The notes under the pieces were generated by a model. It searched no databases. It saw only the letters and a program-made list of their open reading frames with translations, and was not told the origin of the DNA. The position numbers were made by a program, and so were the translations under genes. DNA of 64,000 nt from an uncultured Candidatus Saccharibacteria bacterium (GTDB taxonomy: Bacteria > Patescibacteriota > Saccharimonadia > Saccharimonadales > Saccharimonadaceae): positions 1 through 64,000 of the forward strand of contig CALXTC010000009.1 of the NCBI GenBank assembly GCA_944391325.1, given 5' to 3'. Positions 4,973 through 50,637 of the stretch are shown here, one piece after another. Numbering within the stretch: the first letter of the stretch is position 1; every line of letters begins with the position of its first letter.

Positions 4973-5046
4973 TGGGGATTGGCCAAGCGGTAAGGCAACG
5001 GGTTCTGGTCCCGTGATCGGGGGTTCGAATCCCTCATCCCCAGCCA
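4973..5046 (+). tRNA. tRNA-Gln (CTG), CCA encoded
   Basis: The cloverleaf closes fully: acceptor TGGGGAT pairs with ATCCCCA, the anticodon stem is ACGGG/CCCGT around loop TTCTGGT (anticodon CTG at 5005-5007), and the T-arm carries TTCGAAT. Discriminator G and CCA are in the DNA. The gene marks the left edge of the AT-rich defence island. Confidence 0.97.
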
Positions 5047-5274: not shown

Positions 5275-5296
5275 TAAATAAATGAGGGAGATTACT

Positions 5297-7273
5297 ATGC
5301 GTAATTTAAAAACATATTATTCTGCAAGTGTTAAGGAATTTTTAAATCATTCAGACAACTACATACTAGGTGTTATCCACTCAAATGACATTTCCGCCGA
5401 AACTACTATTCAGCAAAATAACACCTGGAGTCAGGAAATCCAAATTTTAAAAGAACAGCTCAAAAGTTTTGCCGAAGGACGTATATTGTTTGAATATACA
5501 ATACCTAGAATGGGTAAAAGAGTTGATGCAGTATTACTATATAAAAATATTGTTTTTTTGTTTGAGTTTAAGTGTGGGGATGGCGAATATCGCAGTTCTA
5601 CATACGACCAAGTATACGATTATGCTCTTGATTTACGTAATTTTCAAAAAGAAAGTCATAATAAATTACTTGTTCCAATTATGATTTCAACTGCTGCACC
5701 TAAGGTTGAAAATAATATTGTTGAAAATGAAAGAATCATTAAGCCTCTTCGTTGTAACGCTGCAAATATCGCAGAAACAATACGCAAAGTTGCCACGGAA
5801 TTCTGCGAGCCGCAATTTGACTATTTAAAATGGGAAAACTCTGAATATCTGCCGACGCCAACCATTGTTGAAGCTGCGCAGGCTTTGTATAGGGGGCACA
5901 ATGTTCACGATATTACAAGAAACGACGCAGGGGCTGAAAATTTAACGATTACCACAAATGAAATTAACAAGATAATCGAATACAGTAAGCAAAATCACAA
6001 AAAGTCAATTTGTTTTGTAACCGGTGTACCGGGTGCTGGAAAAACTTTAGTTGGTCTCAACATTGCGATCGAACGTTCAAATGCACAAAAAGGTGAGCAC
6101 GCTGTTTTTCTCTCTGGCAATTATCCTCTTGTTACCGTCTTACAAGAAGCCCTAGCAAGAGATAAGATTGAGCAAGAAAAACTACGTGGTAATATATTGT
6201 CAAAAAAAGATGCTTTGCGTAACACATCTGCATTTATTCAAATTATACATAAGTACAGAGATTCATTTGTTGGCAACACTACTATTCCTCCAGAACGAGT
6301 TGCTATTTTCGATGAATCGCAGCGCGCTTGGACTCATGAAATGATCTCAAAATTTATGTCCACTAAAAAGGGGGTTCCTAATTTTGAATATAGCGAGCCG
6401 GAATTTTTAATTAGCACAATGGATCGCCATAAGGATTGGGCCGTCATTATTTGCCTTGTCGGCGGAGGGCAAGAAATTAATACAGGTGAAGCTGGCTTGC
6501 CTGAATGGTTTGATTCTTTACGACGTGCATTTCCTGAATGGGATGTATATGTCGCACCCGAGCTGAATGATAATGAGTATCTCCGTGGACGTAGTTGGTC
6601 TGATATGATTTCTAATCTACACACCCACCAACGCAACAACTTACATCTTTCTACATCGATACGTTCATTTAGGACTCCTGATTTGGCGGCCTTTGTCAAA
6701 GCAATATTAGATGTTAACATTACTGATTCAATAACTTTGTTCAATTCTATCAAGGATAAATATCCAATTGTTCTTACACGAGATTTAACTGCCGCAAAAA
6801 AATGGGTAAGAAATCACTGTCAAGGAACTACTCGATACGGATTACTCGCAAGTAGCGGCGGGTTACGATTAAAGCCAGAAGGCATTTTCGTAAAAAACGA
6901 AATATCTGTTGAAAATTGGTTTTTAAACGGCAAGGACGATGTCCGTTCAAGTTATGCTTTAGAGGATGTGGTAACAGAATTTGATATTCAAGGCCTTGAA
7001 CTTGATTACTCTATAGTTGCGTGGGATGCTGATTTTCGTTTTAATGGACAAAATTGGACGTATAACAGTTTTGTTGGAAACAAATGGAATACAATTCGCT
7101 CTGATGAAAAACGTTTATACCTAAAAAACGCTTATCGTGTATTGTTAACACGAGCACGTCAAGGAATGGCTATTTTTATTCCTCGAGGTGACGACAAAGA
7201 CGCCACAAGAAAATGTGAATATTATGATAAAACATATACATATTTAAAAAGCTTTGGTATTAGTGAAATTTAA
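5297..7273 (+). CDS. DUF2075 / Schlafen-3-like P-loop protein with PD-(D/E)XK-like N-terminus
   Basis: A 658-residue protein. The start at 5297 is chosen because GAGGGAG stands seven bases before it; an ATG at 5282 has no such site. The N-terminal region has a nuclease-like pattern, Asp77 then Glu90-Phe-Lys92 (RVDAVLLYKNIVFLFEFK). The helicase-like core has Walker A GVPGAGKT (243-250), Walker B FDESQ (Asp339-Glu340) and a late RVLLTRARQGM segment typical of UvrD/Schlafen helicase motif VI. Such proteins are associated with defence islands. The gene is AT-rich compared with its neighbours, lies beside a tRNA and follows a broken HTH gene. Nuclease activity is inferred from motifs only. Confidence 0.8.
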   Translation: MRNLKTYYSASVKEFLNHSDNYILGVIHSNDISAETTIQQNNTWSQEIQILKEQLKSFAEGRILFEYTIPRMGKRVDAVLLYKNIVFLFEFKCGDGEYRSSTYDQVYDYALDLRNFQKESHNKLLVPIMISTAAPKVENNIVENERIIKPLRCNAANIAETIRKVATEFCEPQFDYLKWENSEYLPTPTIVEAAQALYRGHNVHDITRNDAGAENLTITTNEINKIIEYSKQNHKKSICFVTGVPGAGKTLVGLNIAIERSNAQKGEHAVFLSGNYPLVTVLQEALARDKIEQEKLRGNILSKKDALRNTSAFIQIIHKYRDSFVGNTTIPPERVAIFDESQRAWTHEMISKFMSTKKGVPNFEYSEPEFLISTMDRHKDWAVIICLVGGGQEINTGEAGLPEWFDSLRRAFPEWDVYVAPELNDNEYLRGRSWSDMISNLHTHQRNNLHLSTSIRSFRTPDLAAFVKAILDVNITDSITLFNSIKDKYPIVLTRDLTAAKKWVRNHCQGTTRYGLLASSGGLRLKPEGIFVKNEISVENWFLNGKDDVRSSYALEDVVTEFDIQGLELDYSIVAWDADFRFNGQNWTYNSFVGNKWNTIRSDEKRLYLKNAYRVLLTRARQGMAIFIPRGDDKDATRKCEYYDKTYTYLKSFGISEI

Positions 7274-7405
7274 CTAGCCGCAGGCCTAGCTTTATTGTTA
7301 CACTAAAACTAAGAACGTTCGGCAGGCATTTAAAACATACAGGCAAAACTAGCGTTGAATAAAAACGACGGCTCAATCATTAAAAGGGCGCCAGCAAGCC
7401 TGTTA

Positions 7406-7411
7406 TATAAT
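7406..7411 (+). promoter_or_regulatory. -10 box of darTG, leaderless type
   Basis: TATAAT, then six bases, then the darT ATG at 7418. This supports ATG 7418 rather than the upstream TTG at 7355, which would place the -10 box inside the coding region. Confidence 0.55.
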
Positions 7412-7417
7412 AGGCGT

Positions 7418-8032
7418 ATGGAAATAGATCGTTACGTCTATCATATGACTAGGGTTGAAAACCTAGATAGCATCCTGCGACTAGGACTACTATCACATAA
7501 TTTAAAAACCAAAAAGGGACTAAAAGATGTCGAGATAAGTAATCAAGACGTCTTAAAACATGACAAAATTATTTTTGGCAAGCACATTCACGACTATGTT
7601 CGCTTTTATCTCAACCCAAAGAACCCAATGTTGTTTTGGAATAAGTCAGAGCAGAAAAAGATCGCTATTATCAAGGTTGATATTATAGAATTAGCCAAGC
7701 AATATGGGCCAGACTGCCTCGTTATATCGGATGGTAACGCAGTCTCAAAGTCAACCAAATTTAAACTCATCAAAGACTTGAAGCCTGGTTTTCTCGACAT
7801 AGAGTGCATATATAACAAAAAAGGTCATTGGAATAACTACAATGAACAAGACGACACAGGGAAGCGAAAACGAAACGCCGAGCTGCTGCTAGACCAAGCA
7901 TTATTCCCTATCCAGAACGCCAGCGCGATAATCGTCATGACTGACGAATTAAAAGTACGGGTCGATGACATTGTCAGCAAGAACCGCACTCTCATAACTG
8001 TTGATGTTGATCCAAATAAGTACTTTCTATGA
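7418..8032 (+). CDS. darT: DarT-type DNA ADP-ribosyltransferase toxin (DUF4433)
   Basis: A 204-residue protein. The N-terminal YVYHMTRVENLDSILRLGLL is the NAD-binding HxT signature of DarT (His9, Thr11), and RNAELLL with Glu155 matches the catalytic glutamate region. Known DarT enzymes attach ADP-ribose from NAD to thymine or guanine in single-stranded DNA and stop replication. Its stop overlaps the start of the macrodomain gene as ATGA, the usual darTG layout. I chose ATG 7418 because a TATAAT box lies six bases before it. Both catalytic regions look intact, so the toxin is probably active. Confidence 0.88.
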   Translation: MEIDRYVYHMTRVENLDSILRLGLLSHNLKTKKGLKDVEISNQDVLKHDKIIFGKHIHDYVRFYLNPKNPMLFWNKSEQKKIAIIKVDIIELAKQYGPDCLVISDGNAVSKSTKFKLIKDLKPGFLDIECIYNKKGHWNNYNEQDDTGKRKRNAELLLDQALFPIQNASAIIVMTDELKVRVDDIVSKNRTLITVDVDPNKYFL

Positions 8033-8859
8033 TTACTGAACGAACCGGCAATATATTCAATACATCGTGTCAAACAATAGTCAACACTATCAACACAGTT
8101 GGCTTTATGGGTAAAGGTATTGCACTGGAAATGCAGTTGCGCTATCCAGAGATGTGCGACATCTACAAAATACTTTGCAAAGTCGAGGAGAGATGTTTTA
8201 CTTCATCGCAATTGACGCCCGCGGGAACAAACCACGATGACTTTTCTAAGAAAGTTTATTTAAAGTTAAAGCAAAAATATGGCGACTTACCACGAATTGA
8301 GGTCGGCAAGCTTTGGCTATACACCAACACGCCCGACAAATGGATTCTTAACTTCCCTACCAAGATAAGATGGCAAGATCCGTCTAAAATAGAATATCTC
8401 GAAAAAGGCTTAATTAAATTCGTTGAAACATACCAACAAAAGGGCATCACTTCGATCGCCTTTCCAATATTAGGTGGCGCGCTAGGTGGCATACCAACCG
8501 AGCAATCAATCTTTGTCATGAAAAAATATCTAAAAAAGTGCAACGATATCAAAATCGAGATTTGGCATTATGACAAAACAGCAACCGATGATTTATACGC
8601 TAACTTCAAGAGCACCTTGCTAGAGATTAACCCAAACATATTATTAATGCAGATGCGTCAAGCAGGCTATCCGCGTATACCAGTAGCCAAGATTTACCGC
8701 GCCATAAACAACCCCAATATCTATACTATTTCACAAATGATGGCCGAACCAGGCATTGGTTACCAAACCACCAAAAAAGTTTTTGAATTTGTAAGAAGGT
8801 CAAGCAATAGAGATAGCCAAACCGAAGAAACAAATCGTCAAATGTCTTTCGACATATAA
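8029..8859 (+). CDS. darG: DarG-type macrodomain antitoxin
   Basis: A 276-residue protein. Residues 1 to about 165 form a macrodomain: TGNIFNTSCQTIVNTINT and VGFMGKGIALEMQ at the N-terminus and FPILGGALGG later are the ADP-ribose-binding loops. The C-terminal part (about 180-276) is a helical region that in DarG proteins helps to bind and neutralise DarT. The enzyme removes the ADP-ribose mark from DNA. It is translationally coupled to darT by an ATGA overlap. The C-terminal GIGYQTTKKVFEFVRR is helix-turn-helix-like and might also bind DNA, which is an inference. Confidence 0.88.
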   Translation: MITERTGNIFNTSCQTIVNTINTVGFMGKGIALEMQLRYPEMCDIYKILCKVEERCFTSSQLTPAGTNHDDFSKKVYLKLKQKYGDLPRIEVGKLWLYTNTPDKWILNFPTKIRWQDPSKIEYLEKGLIKFVETYQQKGITSIAFPILGGALGGIPTEQSIFVMKKYLKKCNDIKIEIWHYDKTATDDLYANFKSTLLEINPNILLMQMRQAGYPRIPVAKIYRAINNPNIYTISQMMAEPGIGYQTTKKVFEFVRRSSNRDSQTEETNRQMSFDI

Positions 8860-40586: not shown

Positions 40587-40664
40587 AATTTAGTTTCCTC
40601 CTTAATTAGATAACACTACCAGTTTACCTATCGACAGTAAGTTTTTCAAGAGATAACCTTGATA

Positions 40665-40701
40665 GAAACGCAAAAGGGCGGACTCCAGTATGAGTCCGCC
40701 C
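40665..40701 (-). terminator. Terminator of the first S41 protease gene
   Basis: A perfect 10-bp stem (GGGCGGACTC with its complement, 40676-40685 and 40692-40701), 6-base loop and TTTTGCGTTTC on the minus strand. Confidence 0.88.
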
Positions 40702-40718
40702 CATCATGCTAAAAGTGG

Positions 40719-41948
40719 TTATGAGCACAAATAGGATAATGCCGCATCCATTTGCGGATCACGGCCAGCCATAGCATCCGCCACGGTTCGCCTAACAAAC
40801 AAATCAGGGTGGAAGTACCAAATCTGCGGCAAATCAGCTGGCGTCTGAAAATCTGCCCTAAATGTCTCCTTAGTCCAGGCTTGATTGCGCAACTTACCTG
40901 GCTGAGCCACCATCAACTTAGTGCTGAGTCGAACGACAATACCATATTCAGGAAAATCCTTCGTAACGACATTGCCGAACGCACACGGAGAATCGCCGAT
41001 GTCCGTTCCAATCGTATAGGCACCAACATCGCGCAAGGCTAGTGCCGTCGACATGCCACTAGAATAGACCCACTCGTTAACTAGTGACACCAACATATCA
41101 AATCGCCCACGCAGCCAATCACACAGCACATAGCTTGGCCCATCACTACCACCCAGATTATTTCTAATATCAACGATACATTTGGTTATGTTACGGTCGC
41201 TAACCACTTGCTCAACCTGGGTAATAAACTGGTTCATTCGGTCTACGTCACCACACCTGTTGTAGTGCAGGACAATGTAATCATCGCCCAGCTCGTATGT
41301 GTAATTGTTGGTAAACCAGTTTGACAAACACCGTAGTTGTTGACTAAATACCGCCTGCTCACCACCGTGAATCGTCTCTGTCCGCCCACCATGACTAACA
41401 ACATAATCTACTTGCACTGTTGATCCAGTAAAACTTGGTAGCATCCGTAGCCGACTCGATCGTAAAAACAGGCTCTGGGTATGATGAAGCCCACCGTCAG
41501 TAGCATAGCGAGTTATCTGCGAGACTTCCTCTAACAACTTCGCCGTTGGCACACCGTTGATTGATACTATCTTCCAGCCCAAGTATCGTTTCAATTCCCT
41601 GGGGCAGGCAATTATATAGGCACAGTCGCCCTCAATCCACAAATCGCCGAACAACGTCATCTTGAGGTCCAGTGGCGTAACGTTAGTATGTGAATCATGT
41701 GGGCCCAGCAAAAACTTCAGCACCGCCAACAGTTCGCGACACAGTGAATACTCATCATAACTACTATCGGTCAGGTTATTTTCGATTAACTCTGCCACTT
41801 CATCACGCGAATGAAAGAAGTAAAAGGCTGGATGGCCAGTATAGACAACCTTGTCCCCAGATTGGCGTGTTTTCTCGACTTTGCCGCAATCCATCCAATC
41901 CATGATGCGGCCGATAGCCTCGGCGACTTCGCCCCTAGTAAAATGCAT
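40719..41948 (-). CDS. S41-family peptidase-like protein, copy A
   Basis: A 409-residue protein. The central part has the tail-specific protease fold: YIVLHYNRCGDV, CIVDIRNNLGGSDGPSYVL and WVYSSGMSTALAL, where the second Ser is the likely nucleophile, followed by GAYTIGTDIGD. No signal peptide is seen, so it may be cytoplasmic. AGGAGG stands five bases before the ATG, a TTGACA-type promoter lies at 42013-42040, and a strong hairpin closes the gene. It is a paralog of the 49331-50569 product. Confidence 0.75.
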   Translation of the reverse strand: MHFTRGEVAEAIGRIMDWMDCGKVEKTRQSGDKVVYTGHPAFYFFHSRDEVAELIENNLTDSSYDEYSLCRELLAVLKFLLGPHDSHTNVTPLDLKMTLFGDLWIEGDCAYIIACPRELKRYLGWKIVSINGVPTAKLLEEVSQITRYATDGGLHHTQSLFLRSSRLRMLPSFTGSTVQVDYVVSHGGRTETIHGGEQAVFSQQLRCLSNWFTNNYTYELGDDYIVLHYNRCGDVDRMNQFITQVEQVVSDRNITKCIVDIRNNLGGSDGPSYVLCDWLRGRFDMLVSLVNEWVYSSGMSTALALRDVGAYTIGTDIGDSPCAFGNVVTKDFPEYGIVVRLSTKLMVAQPGKLRNQAWTKETFRADFQTPADLPQIWYFHPDLFVRRTVADAMAGRDPQMDAALSYLCS

Positions 41949-42012
41949 AGCATCCTCCTATTCTCACTCTTTACCAAAAAGTGCACAGCAAAGAGATTTT
42001 ACCGTCTTACTT

Positions 42013-42040
42013 ACCATATCATTTTTCATAAATTTGTCAA
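42013..42040 (-). promoter_or_regulatory. Promoter of the first S41 protease gene
   Basis: TTGACA (42035-42040), 16-base spacer, TATGGT (42013-42018) on the minus strand. Confidence 0.6.
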
Positions 42041-42216
42041 CTGATCAACTCCTATCTGGACTAACAACCGTCGCTCGACATCGTCAGCCTGATTCCAGCG
42101 CCTATCTAATAACAACCTTTATATCCACTGGTGAATACTTATATATCAGCTCACGACCTCCATCGAGCCAGCCCTTAATCAATTTGCGAACTATCCTAGT
42201 GCCTCACGTTAATGTA

Positions 42217-42393
42217 TTAATCCGCCTCAGTTTTAATAGGCAGATATTCATAGGCTTGTTTTTGCAGTTGCTCGATAAAGGCTAACTCTAGCGATGCCTC
42301 ACTCTGATAAGCCACTGATTTCTCAGCCACGCTGGAATACTCGGCTACCACCGTCGCTTCCGGCGTCTCCATAATGAGGTTGTATTTAGTCAT
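42217..42393 (-). pseudogene. hsdR: Remnant of type I restriction subunit HsdR
   Basis: A 58-codon frame, starting MTKYNLIMETPEATVVAEY and ending AFIEQLQKQAYEYLPIKTEAD, matches the N-terminus of HsdR, where the family continues LIxNLRxQLExLN. Here a TAA follows TEAD, and the next bases (TACATTAACGTGAGG) still resemble that continuation only with frame changes. The rest of the roughly 1000-residue gene and the hsdM and hsdS genes are missing. The following 180 bases to the S41 promoter hold only short frames that I do not recognise. Confidence 0.65.
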
Positions 42394-42400
42394 ACTGGTA

Positions 42401-42721
42401 TTACTTTATCACTGCCAAGGCGAAGGTATTCATTGTGTCGCCCGTATCAATCTTCGCAAATGACATATTCCCAGCTTCTTTGTCTACTACCCGGCCGTCA
42501 ACCGGCTCAACAATTACAATTTTAGCAACATTTAGTGTTTGCTTGATAGCATTCACAACCTCATCATCGTTGTACATATAATCAGCTCGACATAACGCAT
42601 AACGCTCACCGTCAGCTTGAATGTCGTATAGCATAAAGTCTGGCAGCACCTTATGAGTGTCACCAAGAATAAGCTCTCCATTCACACCAAAGTGGTTCAT
42701 TGCCCGTTCAATTAGACCCAT
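42401..42721 (-). CDS. Small hypothetical protein (106 aa)
   Basis: A 106-residue mixed alpha/beta protein (MGLIERAMNHFGVNGELILG, then YALCRADYMYNDDEVVNAIK). No domain was recognised. It stops eight bases before the hsdR remnant start. GGGAG is present before the ATG. The gene lies in the variable region between the S41 gene and mcrBC, together with three other orphan genes. Confidence 0.55.
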   Translation of the reverse strand: MGLIERAMNHFGVNGELILGDTHKVLPDFMLYDIQADGERYALCRADYMYNDDEVVNAIKQTLNVAKIVIVEPVDGRVVDKEAGNMSFAKIDTGDTMNTFALAVIK

Positions 42722-42770
42722 AACTCCCTTTCATGGCCAGTTTCACAACTTGGCCAGGTCGATAGTTGTG

Positions 42771-43031
42771 TTAGATGTTGACCTGTGAATCATGACTGTA
42801 ATCAATCAGGGTTTCTCCACCCTCATTAGCCAGCTCCCGCCAGTATTGGATTTGGTCATTAATGGCGGTTACATGCCCGTGGCCATCGCCATCAGGCTTA
42901 TCTGCTCCGCCATAATAGATGCCAGTACGCCCTCCGTTATCGCTAACTTTAACCTTAGCTTCCCGACCATCGAACTCGCCGCCAATATACCGTCCAGCAG
43001 TCCCATGATAAATCACATCCAATCGGTACAA
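42771..43031 (-). CDS. Small hypothetical protein (86 aa)
   Basis: An 86-residue, Gly- and Asp-rich protein (TAGRYIGGEFDGREAKVKV, then YYGGADKPDGDGHGHVTAIN). It is probably beta-rich. No signal peptide and no known domain. Orphan gene in the variable region. Confidence 0.5.
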   Translation of the reverse strand: MYRLDVIYHGTAGRYIGGEFDGREAKVKVSDNGGRTGIYYGGADKPDGDGHGHVTAINDQIQYWRELANEGGETLIDYSHDSQVNI

Positions 43032-43107
43032 CGAGACCTATTCCCCGTTAGTTGCATTATACCACTGTAATTAAGGGCAAGCCATCAGTTAGGCTGGAGT
43101 CATGAAG

Positions 43108-43434
43108 TTAATCATTCTTTTGCCGACGTGAAACAGTAAACGCCATATACCTAACCAAAGCACCAATTTGCCTTTGATAATAATCGTCGCCGCATTTCAC
43201 GTAAGCGTCAGCGGACGCAATCCCGTCATTTGAACTATTCATTATTTCATCGCGGTTCGATAGCAACAGATCGCTGCCCACAATTTGCCCTTTTTCCGCC
43301 GCAAATACATACTTTGACCACTCCGCATCCGGAATATCCTTCATAATCTCAATCAACAGCTGACGCTCATCGTCATCCGCCTGCGACCACCTATCGTCTA
43401 CAATTTTCTCTAATTTCGGCAAATAGTCCATCAT
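43108..43434 (-). CDS. Small hypothetical protein (108 aa)
   Basis: A 108-residue, acidic, probably helical protein (MMDYLPKLEKIVDDRWSQAD). AGAGGG lies just before two consecutive ATG codons. No domain recognised. Orphan gene in the variable region. Confidence 0.5.
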   Translation of the reverse strand: MMDYLPKLEKIVDDRWSQADDDERQLLIEIMKDIPDAEWSKYVFAAEKGQIVGSDLLLSNRDEIMNSSNDGIASADAYVKCGDDYYQRQIGALVRYMAFTVSRRQKND

Positions 43435-43590
43435 ATTCCCTCTACCGATAGCATATCACTTGATGCAAAAGATTTGGGCTGCCCGCCAAATAGTCCTGCG
43501 CAGCTCCGCACGTTCATTAGTCCCCGCCATAGTTGAGTATGATTATAGCATCATCGAAATACCACAATAATATAGCCGAGCTGTTCAATG

Positions 43591-44226
43591 TTATGAATGC
43601 TGTCGCCCTAGCCGTATCATATACCTAGCCAACAGGGTGTTAATTATGCAGATTGCACCACCCACTAGTCCAACAACGATACGACGAATCAAAACACTAG
43701 CATGATATTGCACTACGGCTGCCGATGCTAGCGACAAAATTGCCAACATAGCCAGTGTCAGATTGAGGCATTTGCTAGAAATTACCACTGGACTATCAGT
43801 TGCACCATGCCTCAGCACCCGACTGGCCGCCAAGGCAACTACGACTATGTCATAGATAGCAGTAATATGAATGGTAATCCCCGGATAATGTACCTGTCGT
43901 CCCAAAATAATGGCTAAAATAACAATAATAATTAGGGCGAAATTAAGCGCCAACACTGCTACACCTATCTGTCGCATACGTACATACTCTAGTTTGGTTC
44001 GACGATGGCGACGGTATGCCAGATTTTTAGTAATCGACGCCTCCATATACCACAACAACAGATAATAGACAGCCAGCGAAACATACCACCATGACCGTAA
44101 AACAATGCCGACCACTAGGCTAACAATGCCATATGCCAACAGTGTCAATACGAAAATAATTTGACTCCATTTGTTTAGCCATTTTTGTCGACGTTGCCAA
44201 TCACGTTTGTTCCCCAGCCTATCCAT
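43591..44226 (-). CDS. Six-helix membrane protein of unknown function
   Basis: About 211 residues with six hydrophobic helices (for example WSQIIFVLTLLAYGIVSLVVG and VGVAVLALNFALIIIVILAI-like stretches) and basic loops. ATG 44226 is preferred to 44235 because a TATTAT box ends seven bases before it. It lies directly after the radC remnant. No family was recognised; the size would fit an immunity-type or small transporter-type membrane protein, but there is no evidence for either. Confidence 0.6.
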   Translation of the reverse strand: MDRLGNKRDWQRRQKWLNKWSQIIFVLTLLAYGIVSLVVGIVLRSWWYVSLAVYYLLLWYMEASITKNLAYRRHRRTKLEYVRMRQIGVAVLALNFALIIIVILAIILGRQVHYPGITIHITAIYDIVVVALAASRVLRHGATDSPVVISSKCLNLTLAMLAILSLASAAVVQYHASVLIRRIVVGLVGGAICIINTLLARYMIRLGRQHS

Positions 44227-44247
44227 TACTACCATAATATCATTGCG

Positions 44248-44343
44248 CTACGACGAATTATTAGCCATATACCACTCAGCGCTGGATAAAATTGACCGAT
44301 AGTCATCAGCTGTTACGATTAGGTGATGCAACAACCTCACTCC
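44248..44343 (-). pseudogene. 3' remnant of a second radC gene
   Basis: In frame this reads GVRLLHHLIVTADDYRSILS and continues SAEWYMANNSS to a TAG at 44248. It is the C-terminus of RadC. The part 44258-44325 is identical to intact radC (48018-48085) at 67 of 68 bases, while the sequence upstream diverges and has lost the gene body. It flanks mcrBC on the side opposite to intact radC. Confidence 0.8.
44258..44325 (-). repeat. Direct repeat, left copy (radC 3' end)
   Basis: 68 bases, one mismatch (44284 G against 48044 A) to the right copy at 48018-48085, in the same orientation, 3760 bases apart. The pair brackets mcrBC. Confidence 0.95.
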
Positions 44344-44400
44344 GCCAACCGCTGTCAAACAGGAGAGCCCACCTACCAGCAATATAGCCGACTAATCAAA

Positions 44401-45456
44401 TTAGGTAAGACTTGGGCTTGCAACCATCACAGCAATATCATCCAACTGCTTTCTGATCTTTGCAAAATCACAGTTCAAATCTAGCGTACGAACCATTATC
44501 TTATTACCATCCATACTATAACTACCGCTCGGCGGAGTGTCCTCGTCCGTTTTTGCATACAGTAGCATACCCGACACGTCACCAGTTCTACCCTTGTCAT
44601 AGTTTTTGACATAGGAATAAATCTGATACAAATGCGCCGAACGAATCGTGCTTGAGTCGTATCGCGATTGTGTAGATGTTTTGTAATATTTTGCGTCAAT
44701 AATTAGTGTTTTGTCGTTGCCGTTCAACATAATGTCACTCTGCATAATTGGCAACATATCATTTTTGTCGTCGTCCAGATTCCATGGTATTTGCGACGAC
44801 GAAGCGTGGAGCTCTTTATGCTCATTCTTGTAATATTCAAGAATAAACTTTTCATACAACCGACTCATGCTCTGCTTATTCAAAAAAGTTGCCAACCGAT
44901 ACTCCCCAGAGTCTGTTGTTAAAAGCATCCCATCAAAAATAAGCCGACACAAACCGATAAGCATGCGATAAGTGCTATTATTTTGCTGAAACCGAATATT
45001 AGCCCAACGAATCATTAGGGGGTCTATAGTATCTACATTTGAGAAAAACAACATTTCTTTTTTTAATTCGTTTTTATATTCTACATTCACTTTCGCGTGT
45101 CGGAGGAGTAGAACAGCGGCAGTTTTTAAGACTTGGTTCATCAGGTTGTTCTCTGATAGCTCATCATACTCACAATTCAACAAACGCTTTCTAGCAAGCT
45201 TGTTGCGAATAGTCCCAGACATATTAATCTTTCCGCGGGCAACCACAACATCTTCCTTGCGATTGAGATACTCACGGTACAACCCCTGTTTTAATTGCCT
45301 ATTAATACCTTTCGACAAAATTGCAGCAAAAAGGTTGTGTATATTCTCAAAATCTTCGGTCGCAACCTCTTCGTAATCACCTTGACCCAGGACCGTAAAG
45401 GCGTATGAGAGCATATAATATACGTTCTTTATAAGAATGCTTTTGTGCCTAATCAT
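44401..45456 (-). CDS. mcrC: McrC, nuclease subunit of modified-DNA restriction system
   Basis: A 351-residue protein. The N-terminal part (IRHKSILIKNVYYMLSYAF) matches McrC, and the C-terminal PD-(D/E)XK nuclease has Asp in MQSDIMLNG and DAK in LIIDAKYYK. It is cut-active only together with McrB. The ATG overlaps the mcrB stop (ATGA), the usual mcrBC coupling; a longer frame has no support. The pair restricts DNA carrying modified cytosine. Confidence 0.92.
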   Translation of the reverse strand: MIRHKSILIKNVYYMLSYAFTVLGQGDYEEVATEDFENIHNLFAAILSKGINRQLKQGLYREYLNRKEDVVVARGKINMSGTIRNKLARKRLLNCEYDELSENNLMNQVLKTAAVLLLRHAKVNVEYKNELKKEMLFFSNVDTIDPLMIRWANIRFQQNNSTYRMLIGLCRLIFDGMLLTTDSGEYRLATFLNKQSMSRLYEKFILEYYKNEHKELHASSSQIPWNLDDDKNDMLPIMQSDIMLNGNDKTLIIDAKYYKTSTQSRYDSSTIRSAHLYQIYSYVKNYDKGRTGDVSGMLLYAKTDEDTPPSGSYSMDGNKIMVRTLDLNCDFAKIRKQLDDIAVMVASPSLT

Positions 45457-47849
45457 TGAAACACACCCTGAAGGATATTCTCCCAACGTTGAAGTTTATC
45501 AACGTCGTCAAACCAATATTCCCTGAGCATAGGAAGAATATCGTAATCAACAACGGAATGTAGCCATTCGTCTGTACAAACGTCTCTGCCGCAGAAATAA
45601 CTATGGCCAATGCAGAATCCCCTGCCCAAAGACTTGTCTCGTACAATTTCCTCATTCAGGTCTTTGATCTTAGAAATGAGTTCATTCAAGGTATCGTTAT
45701 TTAAGCTATTTTGATACTGAATAAAGCCTTCAGAATCAAATCCGGGCGCCATTTCAAAGAAGCTGAATCGGCGACGAAGCGCATAGTCAATCATGGCAAG
45801 ACTACGGTCTGCTGTATTCATCATTCCTATAATATATAGATTCTTTGGAACGGCGAACGAAAGCCCATTATACGCCAGAGTTGTTTTCACTCCTCTATAG
45901 TCCCTTTCAATCAACATTAGTAATTCCCCAAAAATCTTACTCATGTTACCACGATTAATTTCGTCAATGATGAAGAAGAAATCTTTATCTGGCTGATTAG
46001 CAGCCTTTTGGCAGAAGCGATAGAAAATCCCCGTTTTTAGTTCAAACCCGTCTTCTACCGGCTTATACCCCATCATAAAATCTTCATAAGAATAATTTTG
46101 GTGGAACTGCACAAATTCAATACGACTATCATCTTTTTCACCCAACATAGACCAGGCCAAACGCCTTGCGGCAAACGTCTTACCAACACCTGGCGCTCCT
46201 TGTAAAATAATATTCTTTTTATTGCGAAGAACACCTACAAGCTCATCATAACGCGCTTCGGTCATATATACTTCATCGAGAAAGTCATCTTTTGTGTATG
46301 AGTTAATAGGCACCTCCGGTTTTATCGGATTGTCTTCACGTACCATATCAAGAATAAAATCATATTCACCCTTGGTTAGTTTGAACAAGCTACCCTGTGG
46401 ATTCTGGAAGTACTCCATGCGTTCCAGCTCTGGACATTCTTTCAATGTCGCATAGTCAATAGGTGATGTTAACCCTTCAACCTTTTCAAAGAATAGTTTC
46501 TCGCCATCTTGCTCTGCACTGATACGGCATATAGCAACCACCTGCTTTACAGGGTTGGATTCATAGCCGACAACCATATCGCCAGCTTTCGCATCCAGAA
46601 AGTTTTGAAAAATACGACGTTTATTACCGTTTTCGCTATATAGCGTATAAGACTGAACGTCACCGATAGCAATATCAGAGAAACTCCAAATTTTAGGATT
46701 AGCGTTGAGCCACCAATAGCCACGACCAGCTTCCTCTGAATCTGACGGGGCATACAGCTCAATTTCGCTCAAATCCGTCTTATCGAGCGCCATAGAGAGC
46801 TCATCTCTTAATTTCCATATAAAAGAACCTTCTTCGTCACTACTCGCGTTACGACCTAAATAAAGTACAGCCCACCATCGCACAGATCCATCTTCACGTG
46901 AATCCGGAGTAATACTTGTCGCCTCGCAAATCCTTTTTGCTAGCGCCGAAGAACCGGAATTGTAAAAATTTTTTGTCTCGCCATACTTAACCGCTAGTTG
47001 CGTACAGGACGCCATTCCACCATAATCTTTTAGGCGTTTCATAATCTCAAGAGAACTCGTTGTAAATACCGTCTTGTCTTTAAGTAGCCTACACCAGTCG
47101 TCAACAGAAAAGCCGGGATTATAGTTGGTGCCTTGCCAACCTTCCGTATTATTGGACGCTCTGTCATCTTGCGAGTAGTGTCTGCTGATATAAAATCCAA
47201 CATCGATAGTCAAGGTCTTTAATTCAGGGTCCGGATAACAGTCGTCAGTCAACTGTGACCGGAAGAGATTCACCAGTTCACTATTTGCCTTTAAAGCTTC
47301 GCTAATCCCATTGTATAACTTTAAAAAGTTGCGTATATTGTCGGCATAGGCTCCTTTTTTGAAAGGAAGATCTGAATTAAGCTTGTTGGCAACAATTTTT
47401 ACCTCACCAAATTTATAGATATAGTATTTGTTCGGATAACGAAGCCATAGATAGGTACTAATTGCATTTTCATGTTGGTAGTGTTGGGCAGCGCCATTGC
47501 CATATTTCTCTAAAAGTACAGAGGATTGTTGCTTAAAAGTACTGATTCGCTCGTACACATCCTGATTCTCGTCAAACAGGTTTATAAACATAGCACGCAC
47601 TTCTTCTGGAGCCGCTTTGGCAAAGCCAACAATCATACCTTTAGGAAAATTATTAGCAGAAGTCAACAAGTTATTAGTCTTTCCTAGCGAACAGTTTAAC
47701 ATCTCAGCGAAGTCTGCGGCATCAATATCCCAGTTATCCTGGAACCACTTTATTGCCTCCCATTTGTATTTTTCACTACCCCACTGAGTGGATACAAAAT
47801 TCTGTTTGTACTTAGTTAAAACTTTCCCTAATTGAGATTCATCGAACAT
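45453..47849 (-). CDS. mcrB: McrB-type AAA+ GTPase with EVE-like reader domain
   Basis: A 798-residue protein. The first 350 residues are not assigned. From about 375 to 510 there is an EVE-like domain (YWWLNANPKIW, GDMVVGYESNPVKQVVAI), a fold that reads modified bases. The AAA+ motor follows with Walker A GAPGVGKT (about 550), Walker B FIIDEINRGNMSKI and the McrB signature MNTADRS (about 678). It recognises modified DNA and translocates to trigger McrC. TAGGAG lies before the ATG, a classical ribosome-binding site, and a TATAAT box lies near 47878. The repeats of radC sequence surround it. Confidence 0.93.
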   Translation of the reverse strand: MFDESQLGKVLTKYKQNFVSTQWGSEKYKWEAIKWFQDNWDIDAADFAEMLNCSLGKTNNLLTSANNFPKGMIVGFAKAAPEEVRAMFINLFDENQDVYERISTFKQQSSVLLEKYGNGAAQHYQHENAISTYLWLRYPNKYYIYKFGEVKIVANKLNSDLPFKKGAYADNIRNFLKLYNGISEALKANSELVNLFRSQLTDDCYPDPELKTLTIDVGFYISRHYSQDDRASNNTEGWQGTNYNPGFSVDDWCRLLKDKTVFTTSSLEIMKRLKDYGGMASCTQLAVKYGETKNFYNSGSSALAKRICEATSITPDSREDGSVRWWAVLYLGRNASSDEEGSFIWKLRDELSMALDKTDLSEIELYAPSDSEEAGRGYWWLNANPKIWSFSDIAIGDVQSYTLYSENGNKRRIFQNFLDAKAGDMVVGYESNPVKQVVAICRISAEQDGEKLFFEKVEGLTSPIDYATLKECPELERMEYFQNPQGSLFKLTKGEYDFILDMVREDNPIKPEVPINSYTKDDFLDEVYMTEARYDELVGVLRNKKNIILQGAPGVGKTFAARRLAWSMLGEKDDSRIEFVQFHQNYSYEDFMMGYKPVEDGFELKTGIFYRFCQKAANQPDKDFFFIIDEINRGNMSKIFGELLMLIERDYRGVKTTLAYNGLSFAVPKNLYIIGMMNTADRSLAMIDYALRRRFSFFEMAPGFDSEGFIQYQNSLNNDTLNELISKIKDLNEEIVRDKSLGRGFCIGHSYFCGRDVCTDEWLHSVVDYDILPMLREYWFDDVDKLQRWENILQGVFQ

Positions 47850-48010
47850 GTAACTACTCCTATACTCATGTTGACTTAATTATATCACTGGCAGATTGCA
47901 CATGTTTTGCATTGCCCTATGACTATCTCTAGTAGAAGAAAAAATAATCCTACCGGTTAAAAGCTATGTTTACACCTGCCCCCCTTAGCCAAAGAGAGGC
48001 TTAAGTAGGT

Positions 48011-48691
48011 TTAAGCGTTATTAGCCATATACCACTCAGCGCTAGATAAAATTGACCGATAGTCATCAGCTGTTACGATTAGGTGGTCATAGAAACCAAT
48101 ACCCAACAATTCGGCCACCTCTTTGAGCCGTTTGGTTGTCTGAATGTCCTCTGGGCTAGGCGTTGTTGTTCCGCTAGGATGGTTATGGGCTACTATAATG
48201 CCAGCGGCACGATCGGTTATCACATCGGCAAAAACTTCCCGTGGATGGACTAGGCTAGCATTTAAAATACCAACACTAACAATACGACGCTGAATTAACC
48301 GATTCGCCCCATCCAGCGTCATACACACAAAATGTTCCTGCTTTTTACCGCGAACATCTGCCAATTGCACCACTGCGTCAGCCATGCTATCAATGACGGG
48401 TCGATCAGACACTTCGAATCGACGTCGCCACAGCTCATAACTAGCCATTAGTTGAGCCGCCTTAGCTGGCCCAAGAGCCTTGATCTGAATTAAATCATCA
48501 TATTTCAGGTCACTGCCACGATGCTTAACAACTCTTAGAACTTCACGAGATATCTGCGTTACGTCCGCAGAGGCATTACCACTGCCTATGATTGCCATAA
48601 TTAATTCGTAATCGCTTAGACTGCCCGCCCCACGAGCTTGCAACTTTTCACGAGGGCGTAAATCCTTGGGTCGATCAGACATTTTACTCAC
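48011..48691 (-). CDS. radC: RadC/JAB-family DNA repair-associated protein
   Basis: About 226 residues. An N-terminal UPF0758 helix-hairpin-helix domain (LGPAKAAQLMASYEL) precedes the JAB metalloprotease-like domain with the HxHP...D motif AHNHPSGTTTPSPED. RadC biochemistry is unsettled. A TATAAT box covers the first in-frame ATG (48700), so the start is more likely GTG 48691, seven bases after the box. The 3' end is duplicated at 44.26 kb, so the gene was the target of a rearrangement with mcrBC. Confidence 0.9.
   Translation of the reverse strand: MSKMSDRPKDLRPREKLQARGAGSLSDYELIMAIIGSGNASADVTQISREVLRVVKHRGSDLKYDDLIQIKALGPAKAAQLMASYELWRRRFEVSDRPVIDSMADAVVQLADVRGKKQEHFVCMTLDGANRLIQRRIVSVGILNASLVHPREVFADVITDRAAGIIVAHNHPSGTTTPSPEDIQTTKRLKEVAELLGIGFYDHLIVTADDYRSILSSAEWYMANNA
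48018..48085 (-). repeat. Direct repeat, right copy (inside radC 3' end)
   Basis: Matches 44258-44325 at 67 of 68 bases, same orientation. Confidence 0.95.
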
Positions 48692-48732
48692 AATGGCCAT
48701 TATAGCAAAATGCTTAAGCTTGACTGATTTTT

Positions 48733-48769
48733 ATCAGAAAAGACGGGTCGAATCCGTAGACTCGACCCG
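48733..48769 (-). terminator. Terminator of the 48809-49252 gene
   Basis: An 8-bp stem CGGGTCGA/TCGACCCG (48744-48751 and 48762-48769) followed on the minus strand by GTCTTTTCTGATAAAA, the same tail as the terminator at 14.64 kb. Confidence 0.85.
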
Positions 48770-48808
48770 CCCCAATCGGTTGCTAGGGGTGTGCAGGTTG
48801 CGTCTCCA

Positions 48809-49252
48809 TTATCTAGACGTACGCAAATAAATGTGCAGACTAATAAGCGCCAAAATGAGATGCACCACAAAGAACGCCCCGTAAAACTGAGCTGGCGTAT
48901 AGCCAATAATCAGCTTGGCGTCGATGTCCACAAACGTCAGCGACATAAATAGCACTGCGTCAAAACAGACTGTGGCAATTGCCGACAACAGAGCAGTCCA
49001 GCCGTGGTGCTTACACAAGACGACACCGAAGGCGATCACCCCGATCAGCACTCCGATACACCAGACGCACAATGACAGTGGAAAGTCTGACGACATAATC
49101 AGTGCGACCGTCGGTCCAATCGTATCTCCAAACCAATCGTAAGACCCAAAGCTAGCCAGATCAAAAATCGCCAATAGATCCATTACCAACGCTACACAAG
49201 CGACGGCATATTGCGCCATTTCCCACCGATAAATAGTCTTGCTGCTACCCAT
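48809..49252 (-). CDS. Four-helix membrane protein of unknown function
   Basis: A 147-residue protein with four hydrophobic helices (for example YAVACVALVMDLLAIFDLA and FFVVHLILALISLHIYL). ATG 49252 has GGAGG five bases upstream; the longer frame lacks support. Codons are rather GC-rich and a strong hairpin closes the gene. No family recognised. It lies between radC and the second S41 gene. Confidence 0.65.
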   Translation of the reverse strand: MGSSKTIYRWEMAQYAVACVALVMDLLAIFDLASFGSYDWFGDTIGPTVALIMSSDFPLSLCVWCIGVLIGVIAFGVVLCKHHGWTALLSAIATVCFDAVLFMSLTFVDIDAKLIIGYTPAQFYGAFFVVHLILALISLHIYLRTSR

Positions 49253-49330
49253 AGCAACCTCCAAAAGAACATGGTGATAAACCAACGGTAGCTATTATAT
49301 CCTAAATCAGGCTATTACAGTAGTGGCAAC

Positions 49331-50569
49331 CTAGTGCTTAGCCAGGTAGGCGATCGCTGCGTCTAGCTGTGGATCTCGCCCATTGATCAAATCATCGACA
49401 GTTCGAACAACATATTTATCTGGGTGGAAGAAATGTAATTCTGGTAAATTATCCCGATTATATTTATCGTTAAACTCCTCATCAGTCAGGTGGATAAATT
49501 CATGGTTTTTATCATCCCACTGGTTATAGCCATTGGCGCTACGTATAACACTCAGCCCAACATCATCCATGGCGATTTTCTGTGTACAGCAGAAACTATC
49601 CAGTGACATGCCAATATCTGTACCAATTGTGTATGAGCCAATTTTCCTAAGCGAAACGCAAGCCATTGCCCCACATGAATAGATGCTGCCATTGGTCAAC
49701 GTTACTAGTTTAGCTCCAGCTAGAAAGTCCAGTAGCTGATCAGTTAGGCACGGATTGCCACCACTGTTATGGCGTAAATCAATAATAAATTTACCAATAC
49801 CATGTTTTTTAGCATCACGCCCCGCATCATCAATTAGTCGCTTCATGCGATATTTATCGCGACACATTGAGTATTGAATAACAATCACGTCGTCAATAAT
49901 GCGGTACGAGTAGTTCTTGCTACGACCATGACCCGCCTGAAAGCCGGTGATGGTGTAATCATTTGGAATGCTGGTGCATATCTCGTCCTTGGCGTCGCCT
50001 TTAGCTACACCATAACGAATCATACCTAGCCCACCCTTGAAATGCGGCAGTGACGCCAGCATTGGGCTAACCAAGGTTGTTTCCTGTTTGTAATTTAGCC
50101 ATTCTGGGGTGGCATAAGACGTAATCTGTTCGATATCAGCCAACAGATCTGCCACCGGCGCACGATTAACCGTTGTAATTTCCCAACCCAGAAAACGCTT
50201 TAAATCACTGGAAACGTCAACTATGTATGGTTTGCCATCCTGAATTTTAATTCCGGCCGGCATAGTCATATCCCTGGGCATTAGCTTAACAGTCGTTTTG
50301 GTATCGTATTCGCCTAACAGGTATTTCAGTAATTTCCTGGCGATATAACAAATATCGTAGCGGTTATACTCGGACTTGGTTAGGCTACTGTCTAATTCAG
50401 CCTGAGCCTCCTCGTGCGTATGAAGTAGATATAGACAGGGATGCCCGTGACAAATTTCACCATCGGCCGTTTTAATCTCGCCATGGTCAATAAAGTCTAG
50501 TATTTGATTTAAAATTACCTTAGCCTGTGTGCGATCGTATTGACCGCCCATGCCAACTGCTTTGATCAT
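49331..50569 (-). CDS. S41-family peptidase-like protein, copy B, Cys at nucleophile position
   Basis: A 412-residue paralog of the 40719-41948 product with the same order: N-terminal LYLLHTHEEAQAEL, middle VIVIQYSMCRDKYRMKRLI, KFIIDLRHNSGGNPCLTDQ, then IYSCGAMACVSLRKIGSYTIGTD-type segment. Where copy A has Ser-Ser-Gly, copy B has Ser-Cys-Gly, so the nucleophile is either the first Ser or the Cys, or activity is lost. No signal peptide is seen. The exact start is uncertain (ATG 50569 or 50551). Confidence 0.72.
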   Translation of the reverse strand: MIKAVGMGGQYDRTQAKVILNQILDFIDHGEIKTADGEICHGHPCLYLLHTHEEAQAELDSSLTKSEYNRYDICYIARKLLKYLLGEYDTKTTVKLMPRDMTMPAGIKIQDGKPYIVDVSSDLKRFLGWEITTVNRAPVADLLADIEQITSYATPEWLNYKQETTLVSPMLASLPHFKGGLGMIRYGVAKGDAKDEICTSIPNDYTITGFQAGHGRSKNYSYRIIDDVIVIQYSMCRDKYRMKRLIDDAGRDAKKHGIGKFIIDLRHNSGGNPCLTDQLLDFLAGAKLVTLTNGSIYSCGAMACVSLRKIGSYTIGTDIGMSLDSFCCTQKIAMDDVGLSVIRSANGYNQWDDKNHEFIHLTDEEFNDKYNRDNLPELHFFHPDKYVVRTVDDLINGRDPQLDAAIAYLAKH

Positions 50570-50637
50570 CCCTGTTTACCGCCTAACCCCAGCTTAAAAA
50601 CATATCTAGCCGATTGCCGGGACCACCGGCATTAATG

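Follow-up and report, generated by a model that had tools for sequence, protein, structure and literature searches.

Foreign mcrBC genes at the 3' end of radC in a Saccharibacteria genome: a probable insertion by recombination through the gene tail

Saccharibacteria, whose genomes are very small, depend for their way of life on other bacteria, on which they live, and the way in which they gain or change their immunity is poorly known. This question is raised by a stretch of 64,000 nucleotides from an uncultured Candidatus Saccharibacteria bacterium (contig CALXTC010000009.1 of assembly GCA_944391325.1, the whole stretch being called here the window): how did a pair of restriction genes come to lie between two copies of the end of radC, while radC itself is intact? 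The genome is a draft of 0.62 Mb in 27 contigs and is 77.8% complete. A 16S primer site specific for TM7/Saccharibacteria was found in 20 of the 41 genomes searched, a genome of the same genus included and the draft of the window not included.

The two copies of the direct repeat are situated at 44258-44325 and 48018-48085, in the same orientation and 3760 bp apart, with 67 of 68 bases identical, so that the original prediction proved exact in all coordinates. The sole mismatch, at position 27 of 68, is synonymous (TCC/TCT) and separates exact runs of 26 and 41 bp, the latter being the longest. A chance origin is excluded because the next best direct repeats between 40 and 52 kb reach just 20-30 bp at 70-81% identity. 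In the draft genome (77.8% complete) the 68 bp occur at just these two sites. As had been predicted, both copies encode the RadC C-terminus (HLIVTADDYRSILSSAEWYMANN); the right one then continues with a single alanine codon and a stop (ending MANNA), the left one with two serine codons and a stop (ending MANNSS). The repeat starts at the H of DHLIVT, within the zone of the joins observed in relatives.

The right copy (48018-48085, reverse strand) is the end of a full-length radC of 229 aa (48011-48700, reverse strand). The gene product carries both the JAB domain and the N-terminal UPF0758 domain that characterise the RadC family (PF04002, E 3.5e-38; PF20582), and it scores above the cut-off of NF000642/TIGR00608. 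On the most plausible reading of the sequence the left copy (44258-44325, reverse strand) is the old 3' end of radC, now displaced, and the right copy is the gene end that came in with mcrBC. The stop of the displaced end (44248-44250) lies 12 bp from the next gene, which encodes a membrane protein of unknown family (43591-44235, reverse strand) and among 101 genomes is found in its own only; owing to this short distance it is the probable former downstream neighbour of radC. The present radC stop, on the other hand, is placed 161 bp before mcrB (spacer 47850-48010, reverse strand). When one 3760-bp unit was removed in silico, radC stayed open with 230 aa, ending in MANNSS and a stop 12 bp before the next gene; radC is thus intact both with and without the unit. 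The reading GVRLLHH, which the original prediction had pointed out upstream of the left copy as divergent and radC-like, is indeed present, but it bears only a weak resemblance to RadC. For the six of its residues that fall outside the repeat (GVRLLH, 44326-44343, reverse strand), the similarity to the motif G[IV]xLLD of RadC has a frame-locked p of about 3e-4, and over twelve residues p is 0.01. They may be the remnant of a diverged radC, and they are too short for choosing between simple insertion and allele replacement.

Between the repeat copies mcrC and mcrB are both intact and no integrase was found in the interval, in agreement with what had been expected. The mcrB-type gene (45453-47849, reverse strand, 798 aa) joins an AAA_5 ATPase to an EVE domain, a predicted reader of modified bases (PF01878, 30.5 bits against a cut-off of 23); model NF008457 is matched over the AAA part, with a score below the model cut-off. 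The gene mcrC (44401-45486, reverse strand, 361 aa) encodes the McrBC nuclease subunit (PF10117, E 1.9e-39; NF007277 above cut-off). The McrB AAA+ motor adjoins McrC as in type IV systems, and the two genes overlap by 34 bp. The closest relatives of this McrB, up to 83% identical in aa over full length, are found in gut Clostridia, while 100 relatives gave short weak McrB matches at most and McrC was met in just two other genomes of 380 in the phylum, at 33% identity or less. The similarity of DNA to the Clostridia loci is confined to about 44430-47865 and ends at the mcrBC gene ends, being absent from the spacer beyond about 47865, and the G+C content of mcrBC is 0.405 against 0.454 in the window. 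On these sequence comparisons mcrBC is foreign to this genome. A donor-type locus with radC alongside mcrBC was also considered and was rejected, as none was present among the Clostridia loci.

The unit forms part of a variable region of 10 kb (40587-50637) between lemA and the tRNA-Leu(caa)/tRNA-Cys pair, which contains S41-like genes, small genes, mcrBC and radC. In the only genome of the same genus that was compared (G001) lemA lies about 0.7 kb from the tRNA pair, and radC is absent together with nearly the whole variable region. No repeat indicating duplication of a tRNA end was found at the borders of the 10-kb region. Near its two borders are two diverged S41-like peptidase genes (40719-41948 and 49331-50569) with 33% aa identity. 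A second defence-type block of the window (5282-8859) adjoins tRNA-Gln (4973-5046) and comprises a Schlafen group 3 type helicase, DarT and a macro-domain protein, the last two resembling a DarTG-like toxin-antitoxin.

The radC loci of the order were binned by aa identity to the RadC of the window into those with at least 49% (window type), 40-48% and below 40%, a locus being evaluable when at least 1.5 kb was readable downstream. Within 9 kb downstream of radC, genes for restriction or methylation were present on the same strand in 34 of the 42 other window-type loci, a count from which the window, L301 and L302 are omitted, the last two being short RadC-like genes (raw tally 35/45), and in none of the 13 loci of the 40-48% type or the 29 below 40% (together 0/42). 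As the query proteins came partly from the same loci, the tally expresses the recurrence of the query families and not all defence genes. The window itself fits the pattern, with its restriction genes downstream of radC on the same strand. The window type is described as an identity group, since it is only weakly supported as a clade on the tree of radC bodies. According to Pfam on representatives, the cargo includes type I R-M sets, a C5-methylase with a MutH-type nuclease, and an N6/N4-methylase with a helicase and a ResIII nuclease. Other restriction cargo than mcrBC is found behind related radC genes, and two full radC genes flanking mcrBC, the arrangement that would have spoken against the original prediction, were not seen. 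The upstream neighbours of window-type radC vary by locus. Window-type loci lacking restriction or methylation genes are L059, L062, L066, L195, L203, L205, L215 and L273, two of which precede dnaJ. Over 11-20 kb downstream of radC, none of the 19 further radC-headed loci that were read showed a second copy of its own radC tail, so the repeat of the window is so far unique.

No radC relatives were found in viral contigs. A 26-bp promoter-like repeat behind radC in genome G051 was dismissed as an attachment site, having the appearance of a duplicated promoter. Behind RadC proteins of the 40-48% type, at L212 (2927-3853) and 11 similar loci, a conserved protein of some 300 aa is encoded; the single one scanned had no Pfam match. 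Small stand-alone CdiA_C-domain proteins lie within the radC-headed loci L057 (11337-11723) and L062 (5017-5430), and a 919-aa protein behind radC in L062 (5700-8456), which is without a Pfam match, is a candidate undescribed defence gene. Three exact copies of GCGGTCGGTCGAAACCTTAGGC occur near the radC-restriction locus L055 (13917-13938, 16907-16928 and 16954-16975), and the folds around them are unremarkable save one (z -2.5).

Evidence of a link between the end of radC and its cargo comes from a separate comparison of nucleotide identity in the radC body (to HNHPSG) and in the tail (the last 41 codons approximately). In window-type pairs the mean tail identity was 0.54, 0.57 and 0.66 at body identities of 0.65-0.75, 0.75-0.80 and above 0.86 respectively, the last bin combining same-cargo and different-cargo pairs. 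In the other two radC types the tail tracks the body (mean drop -0.06 to 0.07), no pair in those sets exceeding 0.80. Close pairs with different cargo have bodies and tails of 93 and 54% (L192/L193), 91 and 60% (L060/L202), 90 and 54% (L207/L208) and 88 and 51% (L274/L279), whereas in the same-cargo pair L274/L275 the body is 97% and the tail 98% identical. Third-position identity of the body in the four different-cargo pairs is 0.83, 0.78, 0.79 and 0.73 in the same order, and since tails of 51-60% fall below these values, the tails have diverged further than neutral change alone would explain; for this reason relaxed constraint was rejected as an account of the tail. The opposite combination is seen in L063/L202, where the tail is 98% and the next 70 nt are 99% identical but the body reaches just 0.65 at third positions; L063 stops there at a contig edge. 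Counted from the radC end, shared segments break off at about -130, -124, -118, -67, -52, -46 and -23, several of them beginning close to the radC start as well, so that in these few pairs the joins scatter from -130 to -23 and do not share one fixed crossover site. The close pairs are few, related and not independent. L192, L193 and L056 belong to three different genera, yet their body identity of 85-93% clearly exceeds the 72% found for rarA inside the genus of the window, which indicates horizontal transfer. It appears from these alignments that radC tail and cargo are exchanged together with scattered breakpoints, and they suggest that the tail is the site where whole defence systems are swapped.

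It is therefore considered rather likely that foreign mcrBC entered precisely at the 3' end of radC by recombination through the tail, as one recent case of a wider habit of Saccharibacteria. The incoming 3.76-kb unit would have brought its own near-identical radC 3' end (NNA and a stop), which would now complete the resident radC, and the original end (NNSS and a stop) would have been pushed beyond the cargo, to within 12 bp of its probable former downstream gene. The wider habit would consist in window-type radC heading defence loci, with the tail and the downstream restriction cargo exchanged as a unit and the body kept. The entry route would be the radC tail carried by the cargo, presumably by RecA-type recombination after DNA uptake, whether by a single crossover, the donor being circular or concatemeric, or by a double exchange that was imperfect; the unit might be excised again. 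Natural transformation, in which DNA was taken up and recombined, has been shown in a cultured Saccharibacterium (PMC10633639). The 68-bp repeat is read as the footprint of one tail-cargo insertion. The interpretation in the original prediction held in part: there is good support for a cassette that was inserted at the 3' end of radC and duplicated or restored that end, namely the foreign mcrBC, the radC which is intact with and without the unit, the other restriction cargo behind related radC genes and their cargo-linked tails, and the recombination between two radC alleles that it offered instead may be the same event viewed from the other side. The homologous model leaves the join of the far end of the cargo to the chromosome unaccounted for.

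The same arrangement could arise by site-specific insertion, if a tyrosine recombinase acting in trans, or since lost, had used the radC 3' end as attB and the 68 bp were the identity block of attL and attR. The unit does possess a feature of integrative elements, for the 3' end of a gene is directly repeated at its two borders and the gene is restored; the identity block reaches the gene end and the sequences differ on both sides of it. The genome also contains one Xer-type recombinase and a decayed tyrosine integrase, and a putative large serine recombinase was read from the sequence just upstream of the radC-headed locus L056. Nevertheless, no recombinase was seen in the unit or the surrounding region, the tyrosine recombinases of the genome being on other contigs only (fragments of the decayed integrase at L232, contig C15) and a resolvase search of the genome giving none. 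Moreover, the dyad symmetry typical of an integrase core was not above shuffles in the 68 bp, the breakpoints in relatives spread over about 100 bp, and an attR-like second tail is absent from the 19 other loci. The scattered breakpoints, the missing core dyad and the lack of an integrase in the vicinity speak for homologous recombination rather than for a dedicated attachment site, and site-specific insertion is regarded as unlikely. Allele replacement, by which an incoming radC-mcrBC would have taken the place of an older, diverged radC except for its 3' stub (GVRLLHH and the 68 bp), still present behind mcrC, gains something from the RadC-like reading there and from the existence of alleles with the same tail and diverged bodies (L063/L202). 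It is nonetheless improbable, for the upstream similarity extends over six residues only, and the two alleles would have to agree in the 68-bp tail yet differ in their last residues and flanks. That the radC end was first duplicated locally in the ordinary way and mcrBC was later inserted between the copies in an unrelated event, although compatible with the direct repeat alone, is very improbable, as it requires two independent events at one point and leaves the restriction cargo behind related radC genes and the mosaic tails unexplained. An assembly artefact, conceivable in a draft of 27 contigs and 77.8% completeness, is scarcely credible because the longest exact repeat, at 41 bp, does not reach the usual length of reads or of assembly words, the copies differ by one base, and the contig runs on into conserved chromosomal genes on both sides.

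Beyond the insertion through the tail in this one genome, it is tentatively proposed, at somewhat less than even chances, that radC of Saccharibacteria is a recombination dock for immunity, in which the body anchors incoming DNA and each system brings its own last radC codons. If this is true, defence systems are swapped without breaking radC, and the window shows one insertion with both ends visible. The cargo-linked tail would give a concrete route from DNA uptake through recombination in radC to a new restriction system with the gene intact, and would explain the position of radC beside defence genes independently of the disputed function of RadC. RadC-like proteins have been located in mobile elements and beside antirestriction genes (PMC5512222; PMC12458937), and a type I R-M genomic island was reported in a patescibacterium (PMC12455944). 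No account of radC as a joint for the exchange of defence systems was found in the open-access papers searched.

Some integrative elements use the 3' end of a protein gene as their target and restore that gene on insertion. The unit of the window is similar to them in the direct repeat of the gene end, the intact target gene and the cargo between the copies, but differs in having no integrase, no mobility genes and two cargo genes only, and in the scattered breakpoints of its relatives. In integrative defence islands, RadC/ArdB antirestriction modules have been described at one end (PMC12458937). RadC is likewise found here near defence cargo which changes between genomes, whereas in the window radC stands first before the cargo, the join falls in its last codons and the unit carries no integrase. 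With type IV (modification-dependent) McrBC this predicted restriction system shares a McrB-type AAA motor with a predicted reader domain and the adjoining McrC; in contrast, its reader is an EVE domain, its McrB stays below the NCBIfam cut-off and the genes stand behind radC. Polymorphic toxins of the CdiA/Rhs type have a conserved front and an exchangeable tail. In both cases the 5' part is conserved and the variable 3' part is exchanged along with downstream genes; radC, however, is no toxin, its tail is short, and the genes exchanged with it are separate restriction genes.
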